Assembly (NCBI GenBank): GCA_018262245.1
Contig: JAGTRV010000012.1
Coordinates: 1 to 61,253 of the forward strand
Source of the DNA: Pseudomonadota bacterium
GTDB lineage: Bacteria; Pseudomonadota; Gammaproteobacteria; Burkholderiales; Rhodocyclaceae
Length of the DNA stretch: 61,253 bases
Reading direction: 5' to 3'
The notes below the pieces were generated by a model that saw only the letters and a program-made list of their open reading frames with translations, did no database searches and had not been told where the DNA came from. The position numbers and the translations under genes are program-made. This document shows, one piece after another, positions 116-39,205 of this stretch (its first letter is position 1; each line of letters begins with the position of its first letter).

Positions 116-802
116 TCAGCTATCCAGCCGGAAAACGATAGGCACGATGACCGATGCCTCGATTGGCTCGTCGCCACGCTTGGCCGGGATGAAACGCCAG
201 CGGGCCACGGCCTGGCGCGCCGCTTCGTCGAGGCGGTCGTAATTGCTGCTTTTTTCCAGATCAACCGTCGCGGCGGTGCCGTCGCTGCTCACCCGGACTT
301 TGAGCAGGACCTTGCCCTCTTCACCAAGGCGGCGCGACAGCGGCGGGTATTTGGGTTCCGGATTGTTCAGGTAGGCCGCATTGAAGCGGGCAGCTGTCAC
401 CGGAGTGGCAGAGGGCGCAGTTGGGGTGGGGTTGGCCGCGACCCGGGCGACGGGTTCGGGGGCAACCGGGGCTGGCGGGGCGACCGTTGGTGTGCTTGCC
501 GTGACCGGTTTCTGATCCGGTGTCATGGCCAGGACCGGGCGCGGCTTGGGGGCAGCGGGGGCGACCGGTGCCGGTTGTGGTTTCGGCGTGCTGACCGGCT
601 GCACTACCGGCGCCGGGCGCAGGGCTTCGATTAGTTTGACGGTGAGTGGGCCGGGTGGCGGGATGTCGAGCTGGCTGACGACCTTGCCCAGCGGGTAGGC
701 GAGCACGGCAGCGTGCAGGCCGATGGCGACCAGGAAAAAGCGACCGCTCCTGCGCCATTCAGGCAGTTCTGGTTCGAAATGGAGAAGTCGCTCGGCAGAC
801 AT
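116..802 (-). CDS. tonB: TonB-family energy transducer
   Basis: Couples the inner-membrane proton motive force to outer-membrane receptors through the periplasm. The 228-residue protein has a short cytoplasmic N-terminus, one membrane anchor at about residues 21-40, a Pro/Ala/Val-rich periplasm-spanning linker (about 60-135) and a TonB C-terminal domain (about 145-228) containing the EPKYPPLSRRLGEEG motif and a final VPIVFRL strand. It is the last gene of a four-gene minus-strand operon behind a TonB receptor, a beta-propeller and a TlpA-like protein, only four bases after the latter. This suggests a TonB dedicated to that receptor. No exbB/exbD is present in the window, so those partners must be elsewhere. 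Confidence 0.93.
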   Translation of the reverse strand: MSAERLLHFEPELPEWRRSGRFFLVAIGLHAAVLAYPLGKVVSQLDIPPPGPLTVKLIEALRPAPVVQPVSTPKPQPAPVAPAAPKPRPVLAMTPDQKPVTASTPTVAPPAPVAPEPVARVAANPTPTAPSATPVTAARFNAAYLNNPEPKYPPLSRRLGEEGKVLLKVRVSSDGTAATVDLEKSSNYDRLDEAARQAVARWRFIPAKRGDEPIEASVIVPIVFRLDS

Positions 803-806
803 TTTT

Positions 807-1277
807 CTATTTTACGTGTTCGCTGGCCCACTGTTCGAGTTGTGCTGTCGGCAGGACCCCGGAGTGCCCCTTGCGCTGCTGCCGTCCATCGTAAAAGTAG
901 GTGCGCGGCAATTCGCCATACCAGCGGCGGTCGATTTCATAACGCAGCCGTTCGGGCTGGGCGTCGGCGAAGATCCAGCGTGCCTGGGGGGCAACGCCGT
1001 AATCCTGGGCCAGTTGCTCGAGTTCAGGGGCTTCGGCCGGCGTATCGGTGGCGACCAGGATCAGTTCCAGTTTCGGATATTTGCGGACCAGTTCGCCGAG
1101 GGCCTTGAGCTCGGCCGGGCAATGCGTGCAGCTGGCCGACCAGAAACCGAGGATGAAGGGTTTCCCTTTTTGTGCCCGTTCGATTTTTTGCAGGGATCCG
1201 CTGACGAAGGGGCGCATCTCGGCCTGGGCCAGACCGGCGATCAGCAGTGCGGCGATCAATATGGCGAGGCGCTTCAT
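807..1277 (-). CDS. TlpA/thioredoxin-like periplasmic protein
   Basis: A 156-residue periplasmic thioredoxin-fold protein. A signal peptide (about 1-19, ending AQA-E) is followed by the TlpA-like core FILGFWSASCTHC with the active-site pair C50/C53, then helices and the cis-Pro region LPRTYF. TlpA/ResA relatives reduce disulfides or metal-binding cysteines, often during copper or haem delivery. The gene overlaps the beta-propeller gene by 4 bp and precedes tonB by 4 bp. Context suggests it keeps cysteines of a neighbour reduced, possibly the CxCC motif of the propeller; that role is inference. The SCTHC site differs from DsbA (CPHC), which argues for a reductase. Confidence 0.85.
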   Translation of the reverse strand: MKRLAILIAALLIAGLAQAEMRPFVSGSLQKIERAQKGKPFILGFWSASCTHCPAELKALGELVRKYPKLELILVATDTPAEAPELEQLAQDYGVAPQARWIFADAQPERLRYEIDRRWYGELPRTYFYDGRQQRKGHSGVLPTAQLEQWASEHVK

Positions 1278-2479
1278 GGCGCAATCCGCGAGCGTTTCAA
1301 ACCATCTGCCGTGGTATTCCAGACCAGCCAGGGGATACCACGGTCGGTGAGCAGCAATGGATCGTCGGCGGCACCGGCGGTGCGGGCCAGACTGGTCGGG
1401 GCCGACCAGGTCTGGCCCCGGTCGCGCGAGGTCATCAGGCGGATGTGATTGAACTTGCCGTCGAATTCCCGCCAGACGAGTACGACCTTGCGCCCGACAA
1501 CCGCCACTTGCGGGTGTCCGGACTGGGCATCAAGCTTGCCGAAGTGGAACGGACGGCTCATCGTCTCGCCGTCGATGCGGCGATAGTGCAGACCGGGCGA
1601 TTTTTCGGCGCCGGTAAACCAGGCGATGTGGCGACTGCCTTCGTTGTCGATAGCCAGTGCGCCGCCATGGTGCGGACAGGCATCGATTTCCCAGCCATCT
1701 TCAGAAACGCGGCGCAGCGGTTCATCGAGGCGGGCCAGCGCGAAGTCGCGGACGTTCTTGCCGAAAATCTGGCGCCAGAAAACGACCGGGGTGCCGTCGC
1801 TGTCAGCGGCCAGGCCCAGGCGGCAGCATTCGCAGGAGTTGTCGGCCAGCTTGCGGTTGGTTGCGAAGCTGCGCCCGCCATCGGTCGAGCGGGCGGTGTA
1901 GATGGCCGCACCGCGATAGTCCGGGTTGCCGGTGCCGTCCCGCTTGTCGATCCAGGCCAGCGTCACGCCGCCGGCATCGGCCAGCATGGCGTTGAAGCGA
2001 TGCGTGATCGGGCGGCTGTCGTCATTGACGGTGACGGGTTCGCTAAACGTCTGGCCGCCATCTTCGGACACCGAGAAGCGGACGTGCCCGGCAAACGGTT
2101 GCGGCAACGCCTGCGTCCAGCTGAGATAAACCCGCTGCCCGGCAACAGCGATCTGCGGGCGGGCTTCGCCATCGGCCGAGATCAGCTCGGGTTGGCGGTT
2201 GACCGTCACCGCTTCGCTGAAGGTCTTGCCGGCATCCCTGGAATGGCTGACGAAAATCTGCTGGCCGATCACGCGGGCCAGCCAGAGTTGGCTTGCGTCG
2301 AATTGTGCAGCAATGGCCAGGCGGGGCGCCGTCTGTTGTTTTTCCAGCCAGACCTTGGCGTAGTCGACCTTGGGCTTGGTGTCGTGGGCCAAGTGGTCGG
2401 CATGGTCATGGGCGGCCGCCGTGTCGGCGAGCAGCAGTGCGGCCAGCAAGACGCTAGCGCGTGCCGAAGTCTTTACCAT
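1274..2479 (-). CDS. Secreted Asp-box (BNR/sialidase-like) beta-propeller with His and Cys motifs
   Basis: Contains a signal peptide (about 1-23) and then a His-rich mature N-terminus (HDHADHLAHD, about 24-33). Four Asp-box repeats of the S-x-D-x-G-x-T/S-F/W type lie near residues 80, 138, 198 and 351, which marks a six-bladed sialidase-like propeller. The Arg triad expected of a true sialidase could not be identified, so glycan hydrolysis is not claimed. Two unusual motifs stand out: CECC at about 216-219 and ACPHHGG at about 268-274, both plausible metal or haem ligands. It overlaps the upstream TonB-receptor gene by 7 bp and the downstream TlpA gene by 4 bp, so it is translated with them. 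A periplasmic or surface metal-binding partner of the receptor is the favoured but unproven role. Confidence 0.8.
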   Translation of the reverse strand: MVKTSARASVLLAALLLADTAAAHDHADHLAHDTKPKVDYAKVWLEKQQTAPRLAIAAQFDASQLWLARVIGQQIFVSHSRDAGKTFSEAVTVNRQPELISADGEARPQIAVAGQRVYLSWTQALPQPFAGHVRFSVSEDGGQTFSEPVTVNDDSRPITHRFNAMLADAGGVTLAWIDKRDGTGNPDYRGAAIYTARSTDGGRSFATNRKLADNSCECCRLGLAADSDGTPVVFWRQIFGKNVRDFALARLDEPLRRVSEDGWEIDACPHHGGALAIDNEGSRHIAWFTGAEKSPGLHYRRIDGETMSRPFHFGKLDAQSGHPQVAVVGRKVVLVWREFDGKFNHIRLMTSRDRGQTWSAPTSLARTAGAADDPLLLTDRGIPWLVWNTTADGLKRSRIAP

Positions 2480-4590
2480 TTGGCCTGGATCCCGACGGTA
2501 AAGGTGCGTGGCAGGCCAGGGGCGAAGGTCGGGTAAATCACGCCACCGGCGGTTTGTGTTCCGGTACTTTCCGCGTAACGACGGTCGGTCACGTTATGCA
2601 CGTTGCCGAACAGGCTGATATCGCGGTACAGCGGATAAGCGCCGCGCAGGTTAAGCAGGTCGTGACCATCGTACTTCGTGGTGTTGGCCTGGTCGGACCA
2701 CCAACTGCTGAAGTGCAGCCATTCGGCCTGGACCATGCCGCTCTTGGCATCGCCCCAGGTCAGGCGGGTATTGGCGATGGTGCGGGGGGCGAGTTCCATT
2801 TCCTTGCCAGTGTAATCGATCGTGCCAACGCGCCACTCGCCATAGGTGTGCTTGGCGTGCGAGAGGGCGGTATCGAGTCGCCAGGCGGAAGCGATCTGGA
2901 CGCCGAGGCCGATTTCGATCCCTTTGTGCAGCGTCTTGCCGGCATTGGTCGAGGTCGTGATGTTGGTGACCGGGTCGCGGTAGCTCAGGATGTCGTCGGT
3001 CTTGGTCATGTAATAGACCGAGACCTCGTAGTTTACGGAACGGTTAATGTTGCCACGCAGGCCGGTTTCGACGCTGTCGACCTTGATAGGTTTCAGGTTG
3101 CTGGCGGCGATTGCTGCGGCATTCGCTGCAGCGGCGCTGGCGGCGACGGAGGGTCGGAAGAGCTGGCCTTCGGACGGGGCGCGGAAGGCGTGGTTGTAGG
3201 CGGCGAAGGCGTTCAGAGAATCGCTGAAGGCGTAGGTGGCACCCAGCTTGGGACTGAGGTGGTTGAAGCTCAGGTCGCCATCGGCGACCTGCCCGTAATA
3301 GGCGGAGCCGACGACGACCGGAGAGGTACCGTAGCGGTTGTCGAAACGGTAGGTGACATGGTCCTGGCGCAGGCCGGCAGTGATGCGCAGCTTTTCGATC
3401 GGCGAAATCTCACCATGCACATAGGGCGAGATTCCCTGATAGGTCACGTCGTAGTCATAGACCCGGGCGCCCATCGTGTAGCCGGTGTAGATTTTGGTGT
3501 AGCCGCTGCCGGTCGAGGTCGTGTTGATGCGGTTTTCGATGCGGCTGCCTGGACTGTGGTCGAGGTCGATACCGACGATGAAACGGGTGCGCAGCGGCTC
3601 GAAGTCGTGGCGATACTTGATCTGGGCGCCGAAGGACTGGTTCTCGGTGGTGTAGATGGTCGGGTCGTAGGACAGCGACCAGTTGGCCAGCAGATCCATC
3701 GAATCGTTGCGGTAGTAGGGGGTGATGCTGAGCAGCGAGTTGCCCCACTCCTTCTCGTAGGCGGTCGACAGGCGGAAGGCGTCGACCTTGCGCAACGAGA
3801 TCGGGGTGTAGTTGGCCTTCGGATTGTTGTCGTAATCGTTCTTCGAGATGGCCGAGCTGCCGGCTGTCTGCTGGTCGATCTTGGAGAAGGTGGCGACCGT
3901 CTTCAGGGTTGCATCATCGCCGATAGCGCTGTCCCAGCGCAGGGTGCCGCTCTGTCGATCGTACGCGGTCTTGTCGCGCCAGCCGTCGGTGTGGCTCAGG
4001 TTGAGGTCAGCCCGGAAAGCATGGTCGCCAAAGGCGCTGCCGCCGGAAACCATGGTCCGCGCCCAGCCGTAGCTGCCGCCTTCGAGCGAGCCTTCGATTT
4101 CCGGTTTGGTCGGTGGCTTGCGGGTCAGCACATTGACCACGCCACCGATGGCATCGGAGCCGTAGAGCGCACTGCCTGGTCCCTTGTTGATCTCTATGCC
4201 GCCGGCCATCGGCAGGTTCACCTCGTACAGGGCGTTGTGGTTGAAGAAGCCAGTGGACCGGGTCGGGATGCCATCCTCCAGGTAGAGATAGACGGGGTTG
4301 GTGGTCAGCGGCTGGCGGATGGCCGTCTGATGGCCCTCGCCACCGGTGACGTTGACCCAGACGCCGGCGACCTGGCCCATGATTTCGCTCGGGTGCGTCG
4401 GCTTGACCTCGCGCAACGTTTTTTCCTTGATGACGCCGACCGTGGCCGGCGTTTCGCTGACCAGTTGCCCCTCACGCGTGGCGGTAACGGTGACTTCGGC
4501 CAGAGAGGTGTCAGCTGCGACTACTTGGGTAGAGGCAAAGGCCGAAAGGACCGCCAGCGCCAACGGCGCGAGTGCAAAACGCTTCATCAT
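2473..4590 (-). CDS. TonB-dependent outer-membrane receptor, first gene of TBDR-propeller-TlpA-TonB operon
   Basis: A 705-residue TonB-dependent receptor. It has a signal peptide (about 1-26), a TonB box (AEVTVTATREG, about 31-41), a plug domain (about 45-155, with GGIEINKGPGSALYGSDAIGG) and a 22-strand-type barrel ending in the C-terminal aromatic residue (AKW). The substrate is unknown: it lacks the CxxxM copper site of the receptor encoded at 5365-7617. It heads an overlapping operon with a His/Cys-bearing propeller, a TlpA-like reductase and a TonB. A 19-base element matching the upstream region of the copper receptor lies 83-101 bp before the start codon, so the two receptors are probably co-regulated and both serve metal or metal-complex uptake. 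Confidence 0.92.
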   Translation of the reverse strand: MMKRFALAPLALAVLSAFASTQVVAADTSLAEVTVTATREGQLVSETPATVGVIKEKTLREVKPTHPSEIMGQVAGVWVNVTGGEGHQTAIRQPLTTNPVYLYLEDGIPTRSTGFFNHNALYEVNLPMAGGIEINKGPGSALYGSDAIGGVVNVLTRKPPTKPEIEGSLEGGSYGWARTMVSGGSAFGDHAFRADLNLSHTDGWRDKTAYDRQSGTLRWDSAIGDDATLKTVATFSKIDQQTAGSSAISKNDYDNNPKANYTPISLRKVDAFRLSTAYEKEWGNSLLSITPYYRNDSMDLLANWSLSYDPTIYTTENQSFGAQIKYRHDFEPLRTRFIVGIDLDHSPGSRIENRINTTSTGSGYTKIYTGYTMGARVYDYDVTYQGISPYVHGEISPIEKLRITAGLRQDHVTYRFDNRYGTSPVVVGSAYYGQVADGDLSFNHLSPKLGATYAFSDSLNAFAAYNHAFRAPSEGQLFRPSVAASAAAANAAAIAASNLKPIKVDSVETGLRGNINRSVNYEVSVYYMTKTDDILSYRDPVTNITTSTNAGKTLHKGIEIGLGVQIASAWRLDTALSHAKHTYGEWRVGTIDYTGKEMELAPRTIANTRLTWGDAKSGMVQAEWLHFSSWWSDQANTTKYDGHDLLNLRGAYPLYRDISLFGNVHNVTDRRYAESTGTQTAGGVIYPTFAPGLPRTFTVGIQAKW

Positions 4591-4672
4591 CGAATCCTAA
4601 TTGATTTGTATCAAAAAATACTTATGAAACAGATGGTTAGGAGCGGATGATACGGAGCGCACCGGTGCGCGT

Positions 4673-4691
4673 GAATGTGGCAAATTGTCGC
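4673..4691 (-). promoter_or_regulatory. Putative operator half shared with the 7689-7714 palindrome
   Basis: The stretch GAATGTGGCAAATTGTCGC matches bases 7683-7701 with one mismatch (G for A). It includes the TTGTC half of an Fnr-like TTGTC-N4-GACAA box, but the second half (CCCTG) is degenerate. It lies between the Crp/Fnr-type gene and the receptor operon starting at 4590, at a distance from the start codon similar to that of the other copy. A binding site for the neighbouring regulator is inference. Confidence 0.55.
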
Positions 4692-4724
4692 ACCCCTGGC
4701 GCCATGCCTTGGGTGGCAAGCTTT

Positions 4725-5300
4725 TCAGGGGATTGCTACGCCGAGCGCGAAGCTGCGGGTGGCATGGACGCCGTTGATGCGGATCGAGCGGATCATCTCG
4801 CTACGCTCCAGTTGTTTGACGATGCGCGAGATCGTTTCGAAACGCAGATCGGTAATATCGGCGATGTCCTGACGGGTGGGCAGGACGACACGGCCAGCCT
4901 GATCGGCGAGTAGCCGAATCAGGCCGAGGACGCGGTCAGTGGCCTGGCCGCCGCGCAGGGCGACCAGTTCGGCCGCCCGTTGCTGGGCATTGGCCAGCGA
5001 GGTGAGCAGCGATGCGCTGTCGGCAGCTTCGGGGCCTTCCGGCCAGGGGGTCAGGCGGCACTGGGTCAGCGCCGTGGCGCGGAAGGTGTAGCAGCCGAAG
5101 AGCAGGGTTTCGCAGCCGAGAATGTCGCCGGCAATGGCCAGGCTGGCAAACGTGGCCAGGCCATCGTTCGCCATGTTGTCCAGACGGACGACGCCTTCAC
5201 GCAGGCGCCAGCCATTCCCCGGGGCGCGGGCCGAGTAGATCAACGCACCAGCTGGTAAATGTCCTTGGTTATTGGATGAGGTGGCAGACGTTGCTCGCAT
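4725..5300 (-). CDS. Crp/Fnr-family transcriptional regulator
   Basis: A 191-residue regulator. The N-terminal half is a shortened effector (cyclic-nucleotide-like) domain. The C-terminal helix-turn-helix (about 140-165) has RQDIADITDLRFETISRIV, with the E-x-x-S-R recognition residues (E155, S158, R159) of Fnr-type proteins. Only three Cys (63, 70, 81) lie in the effector domain and there is no N-terminal Cys cluster, so it is not a canonical 4Fe-4S Fnr; a Dnr/NnrR-like or metal sensor is possible. The start at 5300 is chosen because AGGAAAAACC precedes it. It sits between two TonB-receptor genes that share a candidate operator, and a terminator hairpin lies just 26 bp upstream, so its own promoter must be very close or it relies on read-through. 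Confidence 0.87.
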   Translation of the reverse strand: MRATSATSSNNQGHLPAGALIYSARAPGNGWRLREGVVRLDNMANDGLATFASLAIAGDILGCETLLFGCYTFRATALTQCRLTPWPEGPEAADSASLLTSLANAQQRAAELVALRGGQATDRVLGLIRLLADQAGRVVLPTRQDIADITDLRFETISRIVKQLERSEMIRSIRINGVHATRSFALGVAIP

Positions 5301-5325
5301 GGTTTTTCCTTGTCCAAAAATGATA

Positions 5326-5349
5326 AAGCCCCGGCCAGGGCCGGGGCTT
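5326..5349 (-). terminator. Rho-independent terminator of the OprC-like receptor gene
   Basis: A 10-bp perfect stem (AAGCCCCGGC paired with GCCGGGGCTT) with a 4-base loop lies 16 bases after the receptor stop. On the minus strand it is followed by TTTATCATTTTT. It separates the receptor gene from the Crp/Fnr-type gene. Confidence 0.85.
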
Positions 5350-5364
5350 GCCAGGTTCAATGGC

Positions 5365-7617
5365 TTAAAACTTGACGTTGAGTCCAGCGTAAATCGAACG
5401 CCCCATACCGGGAACTACAATGCCCCAGGCCGGCGAATAAGTGCCAGTGGTACTCATGGTGGTGCCCTGGCCGGTGTAGGCCCCCCCGAGCGGCAAGTAG
5501 TAGAAGCGGTCGAAGAGGTTCTCGACACCGAGGTCAATACGGACGTTTTTCCACGTGTAGCTGGTACGCAGATGGGTCAGACTGTAGCCAGCCGTGTGGA
5601 TCTCGTTGCGGGCCGAGGAAACATCGTTCTTGCCGCTTATCCCAACCAGTTCAAGTGCGTTACTCCAGCTGCCGTATTGGTGCGTGAGTGCCAGTTTTCC
5701 GTTGAGCGGCATGATGTTGTACAGGTTACCGCCGGTGTCGCGGTTTTCACCTTTTGTGTAGTTCATCAAGCCGCGCAGGCCGAACTCACCCAAGCCGGTT
5801 TTAGCCAGCGGCATGCGGCCGGAGAGGTCGAGGCCGTAGAGGCGGGCGGACTGGTTGGCGTATTTGAGGACGACAAACTGGTTGTTCGTGATCGCGAAAG
5901 CAGTCAGGCGTGTTGCATCGATGTAGTCATCGACATGGGTGTAGTACGGGGTTGCCTTCAGTTCCCAGCTACGGTCTGCAGCATGCCAGTCGAAGGTGAA
6001 GGAAGCGGTGTAGGCCTTTTCCGGTTTCAGATCGAGGTTGCCGACATAGCCGTTGCCATCGCCGACGAAGTTGTTCATCAATGCGGCCATGGTCGAAGTC
6101 GACCAGGTGTAGCGCTCGTACAGGTTGGGCGAACGAACCTTGCGGGCCAGTCCGAACTCTATGTCGGACATGTTGTTCGCCGTGTACCGGGCGAGGGCTG
6201 TCAGGTCGACATTGTTGTCGCTGCGGTTATGGTCGCGGTTGTTGAAGGTGTTCGCATCCGTAGCGTAACTGCTGCTATAGCCCTGAATATCACCGGCATC
6301 GGTTTCAACCCGCTCGTACCGAGCGCCGAGCAAGGTTGTCCATTGCTTGCCGATACGGCGTTCCCATTCCGCAAAAGCGCCGAGGCGATCACGCTTGCCA
6401 TCCTTGATATTGTCGAAGGTATTGGGGTACATGCCGCCGCCGGAGGCCGGCCACCAGTCGTTGAGCGTGTAGTGCTGGTACAACGTACCGATGCGCAGCA
6501 GATCATTGGCGCCGAGCTCGATATCGGCTTTCAGATTGACACCTGTCGTTTTGCTGCTTGTGTACATCGGCATGCCTGCAGCACAGCCTGACATGCCGCC
6601 CGTGATTGGTGAGCAGGGGGTGCCGTTAAGAGAGTTCGACCCACCCGACATGCCGCTGTACCAATACCGCTTGTCTGCCCCGAAGTCCATGAAGTGATCC
6701 ACCGTCTCATGGTAGGCGCGAGCTTCGAACGTACCCCAGTCGTACTGGCCGAGATAGCGCAGGTTGATGCGCTTCTGCTCGTTATCCAGCATGTCCATCC
6801 GCTGGTTGGGGTAGAGCTGGTAGGGAACGTCCTGATAACCGAACTTGGCTTCGACCAGGTGGTTGCCGCCACGCACGGCGAAGCCGAGGGTGTGGGTGCG
6901 GCTTTCGTAGGCCGTCGAGCCGACTTCGTCGAGGGCCAGCGTGTGGCCAATGCGGCCAGTCGTTGTCCACGTCTTGAAATTACCGCCAGCCTTGTAGTTG
7001 TCAGCCTTGGCCAGGGCGCCGGTATAGCTGATGCTAATGTTTTCGGTTGCTAGCGTGGCAGAAAGGTTCCCGCCCTGAGCATTGTTGTTGCTGTGGAAGA
7101 AGGCGCCGATTTCACCCTTGGCCAGGAGGCCCTGGTCCGGTGTCGCGAATTGAGGAGCGGCCGACTCGGCAACGATGGCGCCGCCGATACTGTCCCCGCC
7201 AACGCTGACTGGAGAGATGCCAGCAAATACCTTGATCTTCGATACGTTGGTTGGGTCAAGGTAGGAAAGCGGTGGGTTCATGTGGTTGGGGCAGGAGGCG
7301 ATGAAGTCCATGCCATCCACGGTGATGCGCAGGCGGTCGTCGGCTAGGCCATGGATGACGGGCAGGCTGGATACACCGCCGGCACCGTACAGGCTGACGC
7401 CGGGTACATCGCGCAGCAAGGCAGCCGTATCGCGGGTGATGGCATGCTGGGCGGCAATTTCCGCTGAGCCGATTTGCTGCGGCGTGGCCGCGTCACGAAT
7501 CTTGCTCGCGCTAACCACTACCTCATTCAATGTTGTTTGGGCGGCTGCCTGTTGCGCTGCCAACGATGAAAAGGCGACGGCCAACGCCGCCGCCAACGGA
7601 TGGATGCGATACCCCAT
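5365..7617 (-). CDS. OprC/NosA-like TonB-dependent copper receptor
   Basis: A 750-residue outer-membrane receptor with a signal peptide (about 1-26), a TonB box (LNEVVVSASK, about 30-39), a plug (about 45-160) and a barrel ending LNVKF. The plug carries CPNHM at residues 109-113, the CxxxM pair that binds copper in OprC of Pseudomonas aeruginosa. A second Met/Cys-rich stretch, MSGCAAGMPMY, lies in the barrel region. OprC and NosA import copper and are induced in low-oxygen denitrifying growth, where copper is needed for nitrous oxide reductase. Here the gene diverges from a His-rich Sel1 gene over a perfect palindrome and ends in a strong terminator. The copper assignment rests on the motif and general family resemblance. 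Confidence 0.9.
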   Translation of the reverse strand: MGYRIHPLAAALAVAFSSLAAQQAAAQTTLNEVVVSASKIRDAATPQQIGSAEIAAQHAITRDTAALLRDVPGVSLYGAGGVSSLPVIHGLADDRLRITVDGMDFIASCPNHMNPPLSYLDPTNVSKIKVFAGISPVSVGGDSIGGAIVAESAAPQFATPDQGLLAKGEIGAFFHSNNNAQGGNLSATLATENISISYTGALAKADNYKAGGNFKTWTTTGRIGHTLALDEVGSTAYESRTHTLGFAVRGGNHLVEAKFGYQDVPYQLYPNQRMDMLDNEQKRINLRYLGQYDWGTFEARAYHETVDHFMDFGADKRYWYSGMSGGSNSLNGTPCSPITGGMSGCAAGMPMYTSSKTTGVNLKADIELGANDLLRIGTLYQHYTLNDWWPASGGGMYPNTFDNIKDGKRDRLGAFAEWERRIGKQWTTLLGARYERVETDAGDIQGYSSSYATDANTFNNRDHNRSDNNVDLTALARYTANNMSDIEFGLARKVRSPNLYERYTWSTSTMAALMNNFVGDGNGYVGNLDLKPEKAYTASFTFDWHAADRSWELKATPYYTHVDDYIDATRLTAFAITNNQFVVLKYANQSARLYGLDLSGRMPLAKTGLGEFGLRGLMNYTKGENRDTGGNLYNIMPLNGKLALTHQYGSWSNALELVGISGKNDVSSARNEIHTAGYSLTHLRTSYTWKNVRIDLGVENLFDRFYYLPLGGAYTGQGTTMSTTGTYSPAWGIVVPGMGRSIYAGLNVKF

Positions 7618-7688
7618 GAAGCTCTCCCTGATTTATTGGTATTTAAGTGGGCGCTAATTGTCCGGGAGTTGCAGGGGGGCGGGAATGT

Positions 7689-7714
7689 GACAAATTGTCG
7701 CGCGACAATTTGTC
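7689..7714. promoter_or_regulatory. Perfect 26-bp palindrome between divergent genes (candidate Fnr-like operator)
   Basis: GACAAATTGTCGC is followed directly by its exact reverse complement. The centre (7695-7708) reads TTGTC-GCGC-GACAA, which has the 5-4-5 geometry of an Fnr/Dnr box. It lies 72 bp before the copper receptor start (minus strand) and 118 bp before the Sel1-protein start (plus strand), so it could control both. The Crp/Fnr-type protein encoded at 4725-5300 is the obvious candidate ligand. Confidence 0.75.
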
Positions 7715-7831
7715 TAATTCCAAAGAAGGAAGATCGAACCTAGGATGCCGGCATTCCTGCGTCTTTTGCTCAAGCGTCGATTGCCCGCCGATGTCTGTTT
7801 TGGGCGTCAGAGCGTTTTTTGGAGAATTGCC

Positions 7832-8419
7832 ATGTCCGGACCAATGCTGCGGTTTTGCCTTGCCCTCTGCCTTTCCCTGTTTAACCTGAGCAGTTTCGCC
7901 GCCAGCGCGGACGAGGAGATGCGGGAGGCTGCCATGTTGCTCAAGGGCGGTGAAGCTGGGCGCGCGGTGGCGATCTGGGAGGCGCAGGCGGCCAGAGGCA
8001 ATATCGATGCTGCCTACAACCTGGCGGTCATCCACCAGTATGGCGATGGCGTTCCGCTCGACTACGCGAAAGCGATGCGCTGGTACCGCCAAGCTGCCGA
8101 CCAGGGCGACAAGGTTTCGCAACTCCAGATCGGGCTGATGTACCAGATTGGTCAAGGCGTGCCGGTCGACGAAGCCGAGGCGCACCGCTGGTTTACCATG
8201 CATCGCAAACACCATCTGCACCATGAGCATGAGCCGAAGATGGTTGCCTGGCGTCAGCAGGCGCTGGCCTTGATCGATGAGCGCGATCGCCGTGAACAAG
8301 TTGCCGCTTCGCGCGCCAGTTCGGTTCAGGTGCTGGCCGAACTCAGGCGGCGGGCCGGGATGAGTAGCGAGCGGCCGATGGAAACGGCGGCGCTGGAGCC
8401 TGCATCAAGCATCCGCTGA
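7832..8419 (+). CDS. Secreted Sel1-repeat (TPR-like) protein with a His cluster
   Basis: A 195-residue protein with a signal peptide (about 1-24) followed by two Sel1-like repeats (about 59-94 and 95-130; AAYNLAVIHQYGDGVPLDY and the degenerate second unit). Right after them comes a His cluster, HRKHHLHHEHE (about 124-134), then a charged C-terminal helix. Sel1 repeats are protein-interaction scaffolds. The His cluster is not part of the repeat consensus and could bind Cu or Zn. The start at 7832 has GGAGAATTGCC before it; an upstream in-frame start at 7745 would hide the signal peptide. It is transcribed divergently from the copper receptor across a palindromic operator, which suggests a linked role. 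Confidence 0.82.
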   Translation: MSGPMLRFCLALCLSLFNLSSFAASADEEMREAAMLLKGGEAGRAVAIWEAQAARGNIDAAYNLAVIHQYGDGVPLDYAKAMRWYRQAADQGDKVSQLQIGLMYQIGQGVPVDEAEAHRWFTMHRKHHLHHEHEPKMVAWRQQALALIDERDRREQVAASRASSVQVLAELRRRAGMSSERPMETAALEPASSIR

Positions 8420-8434: not shown

Positions 8435-10330
8435 CTAGAGGTAACGCAGCAGCATGCTGATCACTTCGTCAGCCCGGAAGGGTTTCGCGATGAAGTCGTC
8501 CATGCCGGCGGTGATGCATTGTTCCCGATCTTCCTCCATGGCATTGGCGGTCATGGCGACAATTGGCTGGCGTGGCAGCTTGAGTTCTGCTTCCCGGATG
8601 CGCAGGAGCCGGGTTGCTTCGACGCCATCCATTTCGGGCATCTGCATGTCCATCAGAATCAGATCGAAGGTGTCGCGTTCGACCGCGGCCAGCGCTTCCA
8701 GACCATTGACGGCAATGGTCACGCGGCAGCCATAGCGGGAAAGCAGCTTTTCGGCGATTTTCTGATTGACCGGCGTGTCTTCGACCAGGAGGATTTGCTT
8801 GTTGGTCAGTTTGCACTGCGCCGCTTCCTTGTCGAGTTCGGCGATCTTCGGGGTCGATTTTTCGGCCTGATCGAGATGGATCAGCAAATGAAAGCGGGTG
8901 CCTTCGCCCACCGCACTTTCAACGCGAATCTCGCCATGCATCAGCCGGACAAGACGCTCGACAATCGAGAGCCCGAGGCCGGTGCCACCATACTTGCGCG
9001 TTGTCCATTCTTCGGCCTGGGCGAAGGGGTCGAAGATATTGCCCAGTTTGCTGGCCGGGATGCCGATGCCGGTATCAGCGACGGTGAAGTGGACACGCCA
9101 CAGCTTGCTGTTTTCGAGGGTTTTCTCGCAATGCACGCGAATGGCGACCTCGCCATGCTCGGTAAATTTGAGTGCATTGGACAGCAAATTGTTGAGCACT
9201 TGCTGGATGCGCACCGGGTCGCCCAGAAGGTGTTCGGGGAGTTCGGTGTCGGCGGCCCAGTAGAGGCGCAAGCCCTTGTTGGCAGCCACCGATGAATAGA
9301 GCGCGACCACGCTGTCCAGCAAGCTGCTCAGGTCTAGCGGAATGTGTTCGAGGTTGAGTTCACCGGCATTGATCTTCGAGAAATCGAGGATGTCGTTGAG
9401 AACACGCATCAGGTTGTCACCCGAGGATTTAACCCAGGTCAGGTATTCGCGTTGTTCCTCGGTGAGCTCTGTGGCCAGCGCCAGTTCGGTCATGCCCAGG
9501 ATGCCGTTCATCGGCGTCCGTATTTCATGACTCATCGTGGCCAGAAAGGAGGTCTTGGCGCGGGCTGCCGTCTCGGCGCTTCTGGCCAGTCGGGCCTGTT
9601 CGTCGCGTGAGGCGGTGAGTTCAAGAATGCGCTCGGCCACAGCCCGTGACATGGCGTTGAAGGCGGCACCAAGGCGCCCTACCTCGTCGTTGCCTTCGGG
9701 CACCGGTGGCGGGGTCAGGTTGCCGGCGGCAACTGCTTCGCTGGCCTGGGTCAGGCCCGCCAGATGGCGGGTCAGGAAATAGCCGAGCAGGATCATCAGA
9801 CCGGCCGAAAGCAGCATCTCGATCAGGGCGATGAAAATGCCTTGGGAGAACAACTGGTTATGGGCGGTCCGGATTTGCGAGAGATCGATGCCGATGTGCA
9901 GCGAACCCATTTTCTGGCCATAGGTAACGACCGGAACCAGCACGTCGTAGCGCGGTTTCTGCTTGTCGGCATCAAAGATATTGAGGTGCGGGTCGGCTGG
10001 CGGCAGGGCTGCGCCTTCCGGCCAGCCGCTGCTGGCCACCAGTTTTCCGTCATTGTTGGCAAGCGCCAGGTAATCGATGCCGCCAACCTTGGTGCTTTCG
10101 TCGAACACCGCCTGCACGGTGGCATAGTCGCGCTGGGCCAGTGGCGCCACGATGGCGGCGATCAGCACGGGGGCGATTTCCTCGACATGCTGCTCCGCCT
10201 GTCGGCCCATATGGGTGGTCAGCAGGCGCAGGCTGTTGGCGACCAGCAAAGTCAGCATCACCGCTTCGATGGCAATGGCGACGATCAGCAGCCGACCTCG
10301 CACCGAGCGAAGCGGCGATGTGAATTTCAT
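8435..10330 (-). CDS. Hybrid sensor histidine kinase (HAMP-HisKA-HATPase-REC)
   Basis: A 631-residue inner-membrane kinase. TM1 lies at about 12-34, a periplasmic sensor domain at about 35-160, TM2 at about 165-187 and HAMP to about 240. The HisKA phosphoacceptor H268 is in [15 protein letters not shown]. The HATPase has DTGIGIP and GGTGLGLSI, and a C-terminal receiver has [13 protein letters not shown] as the phospho-Asp site. No DNA-binding output is fused and no response-regulator gene is adjacent. Its start overlaps the end of a PhnD-like periplasmic binding protein gene by 4 bp, so the two are probably a sensor pair: the binding protein detects a ligand and engages the periplasmic domain. 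The pair overlaps the end of ptsI, which is unusual. Confidence 0.92.
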
Positions 10331-11181
10331 TTTGAACTCAGCGCCTGCCGCGTTTCAGCGACATACGGGTCCATCGCCTCAAGTTCGCGCGGCTTCAGGC
10401 TGCGATAGCCATCCAGCTTGTTCTGCTCAAAGTAATTCTTGCCTTCGGGGGTGGCGGCAAACGACCAAAGGGCTTTTTCGATGCCCTTGCGCTCTTTGGC
10501 CCAGCGCTTGTTGAGCATATAGACCCGGCCGGCCATCGCTTCGCTTTCGGCCAGGATGCGCATGCGGGGGCGGATATCCGGCGGCAGCTTCTGGTAATTG
10601 GCCAGCGACGTAAAGGCGGCGGCGGCCTCGCCGGCGAGAACCTGGCGGCTGACGCTGTCGGCGGCCGAAACGTAGCGGACGGGAACGTCACCGAGATTCT
10701 GCTTTTTCAGCCATTGCTGGCCCCACAGCGTGACCAGCGAAGTGGGCGACAGTCCGAGGACGGATTTCCCTTTCAGGTCGGCCGCTGTGTGGATCGGCCC
10801 ATTCTTGTCCACCAAGGCTACTGCCTTGAATTCGGCGACATAGGTCAGCAGCGGCAGGTAGGCGGCATCGGTCTGGTAGAGGCGGGCCTGGTGCCCGGTC
10901 GTGACGGCGATGTCGTATTCCTGATTCAGGGCGCGGCGGGCAAATTCGCTGAAATCCGGGGCAGTCTGAACTTCCACGGGTTGCTTCAGGGCTGCTTCCA
11001 GAGACCGGCGCAGCGGCTGGTACATTTCCAGAATCACCCGGGCGCTGGTGTGGGGGGCAATGCCCAGTACGAAGGGGCGGGGTTCCTCAGCCCAAGCCGG
11101 GCCAAGGATGGTGGCGCAGGCCATGCCAAAGAAAAATTTCAGGAAAAAGCGGCGCAAGGTGGAGGGATTCCGGTCAGGCAT
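10327..11181 (-). CDS. PhnD-like phosphate/phosphonate-type periplasmic binding protein
   Basis: A 284-residue protein with a signal peptide (about 1-31, ending AWA-EE) and the two-lobed PhnD fold. Features include [20 protein letters not shown], then [29 protein letters not shown] and a C-terminal helical region. Family members bind phosphonate, phosphite or related ligands. No ABC permease or ATPase follows; instead it overlaps a hybrid histidine kinase by 4 bp, and its own start overlaps the end of ptsI by 8 bp. It is therefore likely a receptor subunit for signalling rather than for transport. The ligand cannot be told from sequence. Confidence 0.85.
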
Positions 11182-38470: not shown

Positions 38471-39205
38471 ATGCGCCCGGTTCGAATCGCCCTTCTGATC
38501 GCCGCATTGGGTGCCGTCCAGGCCCATGCCGGTGTGTTTGACGACGACGAAGCGCGTCGCCAGGTTGCCGATCTGAAGATCAAGACCGAAGCGCGGTTCG
38601 ACCAGCAGGCCAAGGCCCAGCTGGATCTGGCCGGCCAGATCCAGCGCCAGGCTGAAGAGGTTTCCCGCCTGCGCGGCCAGATCGAAACGCTCAACTACGA
38701 GTTGGAGACGGCCAAGAAGCGCCAGCAGGATTTCTACCTCGACCTCGACACCCGTTTGCGCAAATTCGAGTCGCCCGCTGCTGCTGCCGGCGATACGCCC
38801 AACGGGGCGGCCGCCAAGCCGGCCGTTGATCCGGCCAAGGAAAGCCAGGATTACGAAGCGGCCCTGAATCAGTTCAAGGCTGGTAAATACAAGGAAGCTG
38901 CCGTTGGTTTCGGCGCTTTCGTACAGAAGTATCCGGACAGCTCGCTGGCCCCCAATGCCCAGTACTGGCTGGGTAACGCCTGGTATGCCCAGCGTGACTG
39001 CAAGCGCGCCATCGAGGCGCAAAGTCTGGTCACCACCAAGTATGCCGAGAGCGCCAAGGCGCCGGATGCCTGGCTGGCCATTTCGACCTGCCAGCAGGAA
39101 ATGGGCAACCCGACCGGTGCCAAGCGTTCGCTGGAAACGGTCATTGCCAAGTACCCCTCTGCACCTGCCGCCGACACAGCGCGCGAACGACTGAAGAAGA
39201 AGTAA
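38471..39205 (+). CDS. cpoB: CpoB (YbgF), Tol-Pal-associated TPR protein
   Basis: A 244-residue periplasmic protein with a signal peptide (about 1-21, ending AHA-G), a coiled-coil trimerisation region (about 40-100; QRQAEEVSRLRGQIETLNYE) and a C-terminal TPR domain (about 125-240; YEAALNQFKAGKYKEAAVGF). CpoB coordinates peptidoglycan synthesis with Tol-Pal during division. It starts 3 bp after pal and is followed directly by queE. Confidence 0.95.
   Translation: MRPVRIALLIAALGAVQAHAGVFDDDEARRQVADLKIKTEARFDQQAKAQLDLAGQIQRQAEEVSRLRGQIETLNYELETAKKRQQDFYLDLDTRLRKFESPAAAAGDTPNGAAAKPAVDPAKESQDYEAALNQFKAGKYKEAAVGFGAFVQKYPDSSLAPNAQYWLGNAWYAQRDCKRAIEAQSLVTTKYAESAKAPDAWLAISTCQQEMGNPTGAKRSLETVIAKYPSAPAADTARERLKKK

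Follow-up and report, generated by a model that had tools for sequence, protein, structure and literature searches.

Two genes for TonB-dependent receptors lie on the minus strand of the 61-kb window analysed here (the window being the whole stretch of DNA, from a host genome of 3.78 Mb). Each is preceded by a copy of the same DNA element, and a gene for a regulator of the Crp/Fnr family lies between them. The question raised by this locus is which protein reads the element. An earlier note had proposed that the neighbouring Crp/Fnr protein does so and that it runs a small copper and low-oxygen regulon. Instead, both elements are most probably sites of the genome's own RegA/PrrA-type regulator, predicted to be class II activator sites of a copper-supply regulon. 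This reading is based on the identity of the site, its co-occurrence with RegA, boxes near regA, a fixed geometry relative to the -10 hexamer, upstream enrichment, an identical recognition helix and the other boxes of the host genome.

The palindrome at 7689-7714, GACAAATTGTCGCGCGACAATTTGTC, is perfect over 26 bp, as the earlier note had read it, and the letters at 4673-4691 differ from those at 7683-7701 at 1 of 19 bases, which was likewise confirmed. No palindrome of that length was found in 20 dinucleotide shuffles of the window, which itself contains two; the other lies at 38620-38645 (GCTGGATCTGGCCGGCCAGATCCAGC). Repeat pairs of this kind numbered 45 in the window when overlapping pairs were counted (the first 20 were viewed), compared to 0-11 in 20 shuffles with a mean of 1.7, and on its own, in 61 kb, the repeat is weak evidence. 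A motif search of the whole genome found TGTGRCAAATTGTCGCR without mismatch only at the two window sites. Its position, its rarity in the genome and its conservation upstream of orthologues together argue that the shared element is real. The recurring unit is an odd-length dyad of 17 bp, TGYGRCA-N3-TGYCRCA, with the copies TGTGGCA-AAT-TGTCGCA and TGTGACA-AAT-TGTCGCG, that is GTGRC-N5-GTCGC, or GNGRC-N5-GNCGC in its general form. The TTGTC-N4-GACAA core on which the Fnr-like reading was built is present, but it marks where two boxes meet and is not the unit that recurs: the length of the palindrome comes from a weaker second box, placed at a distance of 15 bp from the first. The features in question are as follows.

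5365-7617, minus strand: OprC-type TonB-dependent copper receptor gene (CxxxM = C109/M113, HxM = H308/M310)
7657-7662, minus strand: predicted -10 hexamer of the OprC-type receptor gene, GACAAT (4/6), first base 32 bp from the box centre
7686-7702, centre 7694, minus strand: predicted RegA-type box of the OprC-type receptor gene, promoter-proximal, CGCGACAATTTGTCACA, 0 mismatches to the shared pattern
7701-7717, centre 7709, minus strand: weaker second copy of the box, set back to back with the proximal one, TTAGACAAATTGTCGCG, 2 mismatches
7689-7714: 26-bp perfect palindrome at the junction of the two boxes
4725-5300, minus strand: Crp/Fnr-family regulator gene with an ETxSR motif and without the FNR cysteine set, a recurrent neighbour of OprC-type genes
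2473-4590, minus strand: second TonB-dependent receptor gene, YncD/PqqU-like
4676-4692, centre 4684, minus strand: predicted RegA-type box of the second receptor gene, TGCGACAATTTGCCACA
4670-4675, minus strand: -35-like hexamer of the second receptor gene, TTCACG, abutting the box (consensus match)
4647-4652, minus strand: predicted -10 hexamer of the second receptor gene, TATCAT (5/6), first base 32 bp from the box centre

The proximal box of the OprC-type gene is present with at most 2 mismatches in the sister genomes G112 and G062 and in 14 named relatives. In both sister genomes the inner TTGTCGCGCGACAA has changed to TTGTCGCGCGGCAA, so that the symmetry is gone while a GCGRC half-site is retained. 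The same 14-bp core recurs once in the set of family genomes, in G025, where it also lies beside a box.

PMC5506826 gives the RegR site as GNGRCRTTNNGNCGC and the PrrA site as YSCGGC(5)GWCRMA. The window half-sites, GTGGC-N5-GTCGC and GTGAC-N5-GTCGC, fit GNGRC-N5-GNCGC and agree with those of RegR. The inner TT of RegR is absent from the window boxes, and of the 12 defined letters of the PrrA site 11 and 9 are matched. The host genome encodes a RegA-like protein (P0001) and a RegB-like kinase (P0002) as neighbours on contig C217, with open frames that overlap by 4 bases (L041). The best NCBIfam match of P0001 is ActR/PrrA/RegA (NF033791) and that of P0002 is ActS/PrrB (NF033792, expectation value (E) 5e-70). 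P0001 has a Fis-type helix-turn-helix, and its helix MHRRTLQR, which we take to be the RegA/PrrA recognition helix, is identical to that of PrrA (1umq, E 5e-14). In the host genome, regB and a cytochrome c gene have a one-mismatch box between them, and among the 30 best-scoring regA loci of the family, 20 had a box with at most 1 mismatch within 1.5 kb of regA, compared to none for the reversed motif.

Two sets of genomes were scored for the box and for RegA. The named GTDB genomes were represented by the best 80 of at least 568 OprC-type receptor loci, drawn from a candidate list of limited length; L241 was left out because its upstream sequence was shorter than 100 bp, which gave 79 promoters. 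The family set held 121 genomes, in which a match with E below 1e-30 counted as RegA; the weak-match genomes G039 and G096 were moved out of an initial 66. Within 300 bp upstream, 45 of the 79 named promoters carried a box with at most 1 mismatch, compared to a shuffle mean of 0.2 and one promoter for the reversed motif. RegA was present in 48 of the 80 named genomes. A box with at most 2 mismatches was found in 45/48 promoters of genomes with RegA and in 3/31 without (p 9e-15), and with at most 1 mismatch the counts were 42/48 and 3/31 (p 2e-12); the reversed motif gave 4/48 and 0/31 (p 0.15). The genomes without RegA in this set are presumably mostly Burkholderiales. Within Tepidiphilus, L209 has both RegA and the box while L249 and L251 have neither, a split that the RegA reading expects. 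Across the family genomes, an exact box occurred in 51/64 with RegA and 19/57 without (p 4e-7), and two or more boxes in 41/64 and 7/57 (p 4e-9), with no difference for the reversed pattern (p 0.72). The family receptor promoters read numbered 31 (30 loci and the host's second copy, from 48 match rows); 25 had a box at up to 2 mismatches and 21 at up to 1. Counted by hand per genome, the OprC-type box was present in 23/25 family genomes with RegA and in 1/5 without.

The box also keeps a fixed distance to the promoter. The earlier note was right that the two elements lie at similar distances from their receptor genes: the start codons are 93 and 76 bases away from the box centres, and the -10 hexamer is 32 bases away in both. 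Three blocks are conserved in an alignment of 17 OprC-type promoters: the box, a CATT at its end, and GAnAAT, which is kept at the -10 position in 16 of the 17. A promoter pattern scan found TTCACG-17-TATCAT at the second receptor, among 3 promoter-like sites in total (shuffle mean 1.2), and no promoter-like pair at the OprC-type receptor. In promoters carrying a box with at most 1 mismatch, a TATAAT-like hexamer (at least 4/6) lay at +31/+32 in 40/45 named and 21/21 family OprC-type promoters and in 4/4 second-receptor promoters. Across the offsets compared, 10-59, the median frequency did not exceed about 2%, and the runners-up reached 13% and 24%. OprC-type genes preceded by this box, mostly at the 31-32 bp spacing, are found in Beta- and some Gammaproteobacteria with RegA. 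If transcription starts about 7 bp past the hexamer, as we assumed, the box centre would fall near -43/-44, the position of a class II activator. In 13/45 named and 4/21 family promoters carrying a box, another one lay exactly 15 bp further upstream. This was the most frequent distance between boxes in both sets, by a slim margin in the family (3 at 17 bp), and it was not the most frequent in the four second-receptor promoters.

Several observations weigh against RegA as the reader. The equivalog cut-offs were missed by both proteins (P0001 169 against 250 bits, P0002 236 against 350 bits). RegA is present without a box in L266 and L267 (Pseudomonas) and in L243, whose RegA match is only 45% identical, and in G103 and G067 of the family. 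A box is present without RegA in L196, L223 and L247, all metagenome-assembled genomes, and in G028. Some of the absences may be misses or unassembled genes, as the RegA searches scored only part of the candidates in many genomes of both sets, 28 of them in most family genomes. The p-values are inflated because the genomes share ancestry and are not independent, and the family and named sets are not two independent tests because they overlap, at least in L198/G101, L210/G008, L249/G096 and L251/G039. The offsets +31/+32 were selected after a first look at the data. At the second receptor, 9/13 promoters had no box at up to 1 mismatch (L171, the fourteenth, was dropped as cut off), and no good hexamer was found at +31/+32 for the host boxes at C99, C217 and C78:3004. 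In Methylomonas, RegA affects a TonB receptor for iron uptake, yet chromatin immunoprecipitation gave no binding at its promoter (PMC13274454).

We infer both the activation by RegA at these promoters and its timing, as follows. Under reducing or low-oxygen conditions RegB would phosphorylate RegA, and a RegA dimer beside the -35 region would recruit the polymerase. The weaker copy at 7701-7717 may hold a second dimer. The outcome would be more copper importer, together with Sco1, PCuAC and NosL, and a further layer could come from the Crp/Fnr protein and from FNR. A wider proposal, which we hold tentatively and rate at slightly under an even chance, is that in Rhodocyclaceae and relatives RegA may be the master switch of copper demand. 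Through one near-palindromic class II box of fixed geometry it would couple the redox state to the supply line of OprC-type importers, the second TonB receptor, Sco1, PCuAC, NosL and copper oxidases.

The main rival is the one in the earlier note, in which the element is bound by the Crp/Fnr protein encoded between the receptor genes, as the regulator of a small local regulon. Its protein is as described there, with E-x-x-S-R contacts and no iron-sulphur cysteine set, as verified by alignment and model. The fold is CRP/FNR (mean predicted local distance difference test score 83), and the 50 PDB matches listed are all of the CRP/FNR type. The motif E-T-I-S-R is FNR-like, and ETxSR is invariant in 17/17 aligned sequences. 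No FNR-type cysteine was found near the N-terminus, where the first cysteine is that of GCET, and even this one is not invariant (replaced by A in two of the 17 sequences and by S in one). The gene is also a recurrent neighbour of OprC-type genes: a homologue lies within the flanks of the receptor at 24 of the 80 named loci, from which the partnership of Crp/Fnr proteins with copper import looks real. When the neighbour is close (at least 60% identical) it goes with the box, in 13/14 loci compared to 32/65 (p 0.003), a difference that cannot separate Crp/Fnr from RegA because all 14 genomes have RegA. Elsewhere the two do separate. In genomes with RegA and no Crp/Fnr neighbour in the flanks the box was found in 31/33, although a regulator could there be encoded elsewhere, and in genomes with a neighbour and no RegA it was found in 0/9, the neighbours being distant (about 26-40% identical). 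Across the family genomes the exact box showed no association with the Crp/Fnr protein (9/18 with and 61/103 without, p 0.6). These counts suggest that the box tracks RegA and not the Crp/Fnr neighbour. The site itself does not suit such a reader. Proteins with ETxSR are expected to bind TTGAT-type half-sites, and the palindrome fails the FNR box TTGAT-N4-ATCAA by two mismatches to TTGAYNNNNRTCAA. The odd 17-bp dyad is mismatched to a Crp/Fnr protein, and the inner palindrome is asymmetric in G112 and G062. An FNR/CRP reading of the palindrome was rejected on spacing, sister-genome changes and co-occurrence, and the neighbour is not supported as the protein that reads the element with Fnr-like spacing. 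A search of 23 promoters without a box for a common palindrome that might serve the Crp/Fnr protein turned up only GCGC-type pairs of low information. The Crp/Fnr gene is a genuine neighbour at copper loci but its protein is probably not the reader of the box, and the rival as a whole is very unlikely.

Equally improbable is that the box is recognised by another copper regulator that happens to co-occur with RegA. In the host genome the exact boxes all lie near copper or TonB-receptor genes, and the RegA regulons of Rhodobacter look less copper-centred, both of which speak for such a regulator. The match to the RegR/PrrA half-sites, the boxes near regA in 20/30 loci and a RegA helix identical to that of PrrA speak against it. 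Metal and nitric oxide regulators with odd dyads, such as CusR and NorR, were considered and were dropped once the RegR/PrrA consensus fitted. That the palindrome is an RNA hairpin, an attenuator or a product of chance rather than a protein site is hardly credible: it is perfectly self-complementary, but it lies upstream of the predicted -10 hexamer and would therefore fall outside the transcript, and what is conserved is the 17-bp box, not the outer palindrome.

With RegA as the preferred reader, FNR may still have a part at the second receptor. A perfect FNR box, overlooked in the earlier note, is centred 17 bp before the start codon.

4601-4614: perfect FNR box, TTGATTTGTATCAA, located past the point where transcription of the second receptor gene is predicted to begin

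This is a repressor-like position. The host genome has 15 perfect FNR boxes and none of the reversed pattern, and among its genes is one for an FNR-like protein that has cysteines at the N-terminus (L270). FNR-type boxes without mismatch were also found upstream of OprC-type genes in G008, G080, G019, G069, L225 and L254. Given FNR boxes at receptors and an FNR-like protein, low-oxygen control may be layered.

The assignment of the first receptor to copper is supported by its ligands. The CxxxM-HxM residues (C109, M113, H308 and M310), which are the copper ligands of OprC (PMC8610252), are invariant in 31/31 sequences including the window receptor, and the receptor has a profile match to the solved OprC at E 5e-30. 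It scores below the cut-off of the NCBIfam TonB-copper model TIGR01778 (125 against 472 bits), and a heme-receptor model scores it slightly higher, at 143 bits, likewise below its cut-off. The nearest solved relatives of the second receptor by sequence are YncD/PqqU, so that 'copper' applies to it by association only.

The host genome contains 8 exact boxes, compared to 2 for the reversed pattern, and each of the 8 has copper or TonB-receptor genes in its vicinity, though for two the link is loose.

C23: exact box, second receptor
C9 (L080:2045-2078): pair of exact boxes with a spacing of 17 bp, flanked by divergent TonB-receptor-like genes
C78:303: exact box, PCuAC-like gene (named by eye), perfect TATAAT at +31
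C78:3004: exact box, about 870 bp before COX1 (loose)
C99: exact box, Sco1/PCuAC operon
C179: exact box, about 280 bp before a Sco1 gene (loose)
C180: exact box, two NosL genes

One-mismatch boxes precede the window OprC-type gene, a second OprC-type gene (C3) and regB. Hexamers at +31/+32 were present for the boxes at C9, C78:303, C179, C180 and C3. Of the small copper and low-oxygen regulon in the earlier note, the shared element is supported, and so is the copper and redox theme, through the copper receptor and the copper genes near other boxes; the local Crp/Fnr reader is not supported. Matches to the 17-mer in the host genome numbered 43 on both strands, compared to 18 for the reversed control; weak ones (2-3 mismatches) in or near unrelated genes (such as an MCP-like coding frame in L029, and L037, L039, L040, L086 and L087) were treated as chance. 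At L084:2101-2158, one-mismatch box-like sites with right-spaced hexamers lie near sigma-factor/FecR-like genes (by eye), which adjoin another TonB-receptor-like gene.

The system resembles RegB/RegA and its relatives (PrrB/PrrA, ActS/ActR, RegS/RegR, RoxS/RoxR) in the adjacent kinase and regulator, the helix, the half-sites, the boxes near regB/regA, and the respiratory and copper-chaperone genes near boxes. Published RegA-type sites have been described as degenerate or as variable in spacing (PMC5506826, PMC4064962); in contrast, the window box is near-palindromic and stands at a fixed distance from the -10 hexamer. In Rhodobacter capsulatus, RegA affects nosL and other nos genes (PMC5359404), and it binds copper and is switched by copper or oxygen through Cys156 (PMC9147068). 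As P0001 contains no cysteine, a switch of this type cannot operate here. P0001 also lacks the group 1 RegA features described in PMC9147068, a cysteine before the helix-turn-helix and a linked senC, and no senC was seen by eye among the open frames in the 4.2 kb around regB/regA (L041). OprC/NosA is produced when oxygen is absent, and copper represses it (PMC8610252, PMC7558416), and the reported regulator of oprC in Pseudomonas aeruginosa is CueR (PMC7558416). The two Pseudomonas OprC-type promoters examined differ from the window in having no box. CrtA (BfrG) is similar as a TonB-dependent copper importer tied to respiratory oxidases, with some Sco1/PCuAC linkage, but in Bordetella it is controlled post-transcriptionally by CruR and its sequence clusters apart from OprC (PMC12914433). 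FNR/DNR regulons share the FNR-type box at 4601-4614 and the host FNR-like protein, but the shared element is not an FNR box. RegA-type regulators, their sites, OprC and an effect of RegA on TonB-type iron uptake are already known, and searches of an open-access library, which covered titles and the beginnings of abstracts, listed no report that RegA, PrrA or RoxR controls an OprC/NosA-type receptor. What appears new is the predicted RegA-type box at OprC-type copper importers, in an unusually clean form. The control of bacterial copper import is poorly known, and a box mostly 31-32 bp from the -10 hexamer in dozens of genomes gives a concrete candidate regulator for OprC-type genes, as well as a cleaner model site for a regulator family whose sites are hard to define. 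If true, the wider proposal of RegA as the switch of copper demand would give a direct transcriptional reason why OprC/NosA-type importers are made at low oxygen in these bacteria.

The genes around the element are in the order OprC-type receptor, Crp/Fnr regulator, second receptor, BNR protein, thioredoxin-like protein and TonB, and the remaining features are as follows.

5326-5349, minus strand: terminator-like hairpin between the OprC-type receptor gene and the regulator gene (consensus match only)
1274-2479, minus strand: BNR-repeat protein gene, unit of the second receptor
807-1277, minus strand: thioredoxin-like (AhpC/TSA) protein gene, unit of the second receptor
116-802, minus strand: TonB gene, unit of the second receptor

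Distant Crp/Fnr homologues (about 26-34% identical) lie near OprC-type genes without a box in L213, L221, L234, L235, L238, L243 and L244 (Burkholderiales-type). A Sel1-repeat gene is divergent beside the OprC-type gene in the window (7745-8419, by Pfam) and in G112 (L079:6636-7274, by eye), and one seen by eye adjoins the Crp/Fnr gene in G008 (L011:748-1356). In G112 the same BNR and thioredoxin-like genes are accompanied by a different TonB receptor (L079:11992-14265) in place of the second receptor, and in that unit the box lies before the TonB gene rather than before the receptor gene. A SCECCR stretch is kept in the BNR protein of the window (1274-2479) and of G112 (L079:10812-12017), though the receptor of the unit differs, and this protein is possibly a periplasmic metal-handling protein. 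Further along the window, a gene for a phosphonate-binding-type periplasmic protein (10327-11181) adjoins a sensor-kinase gene, and the two possibly form a two-gene sensing unit.

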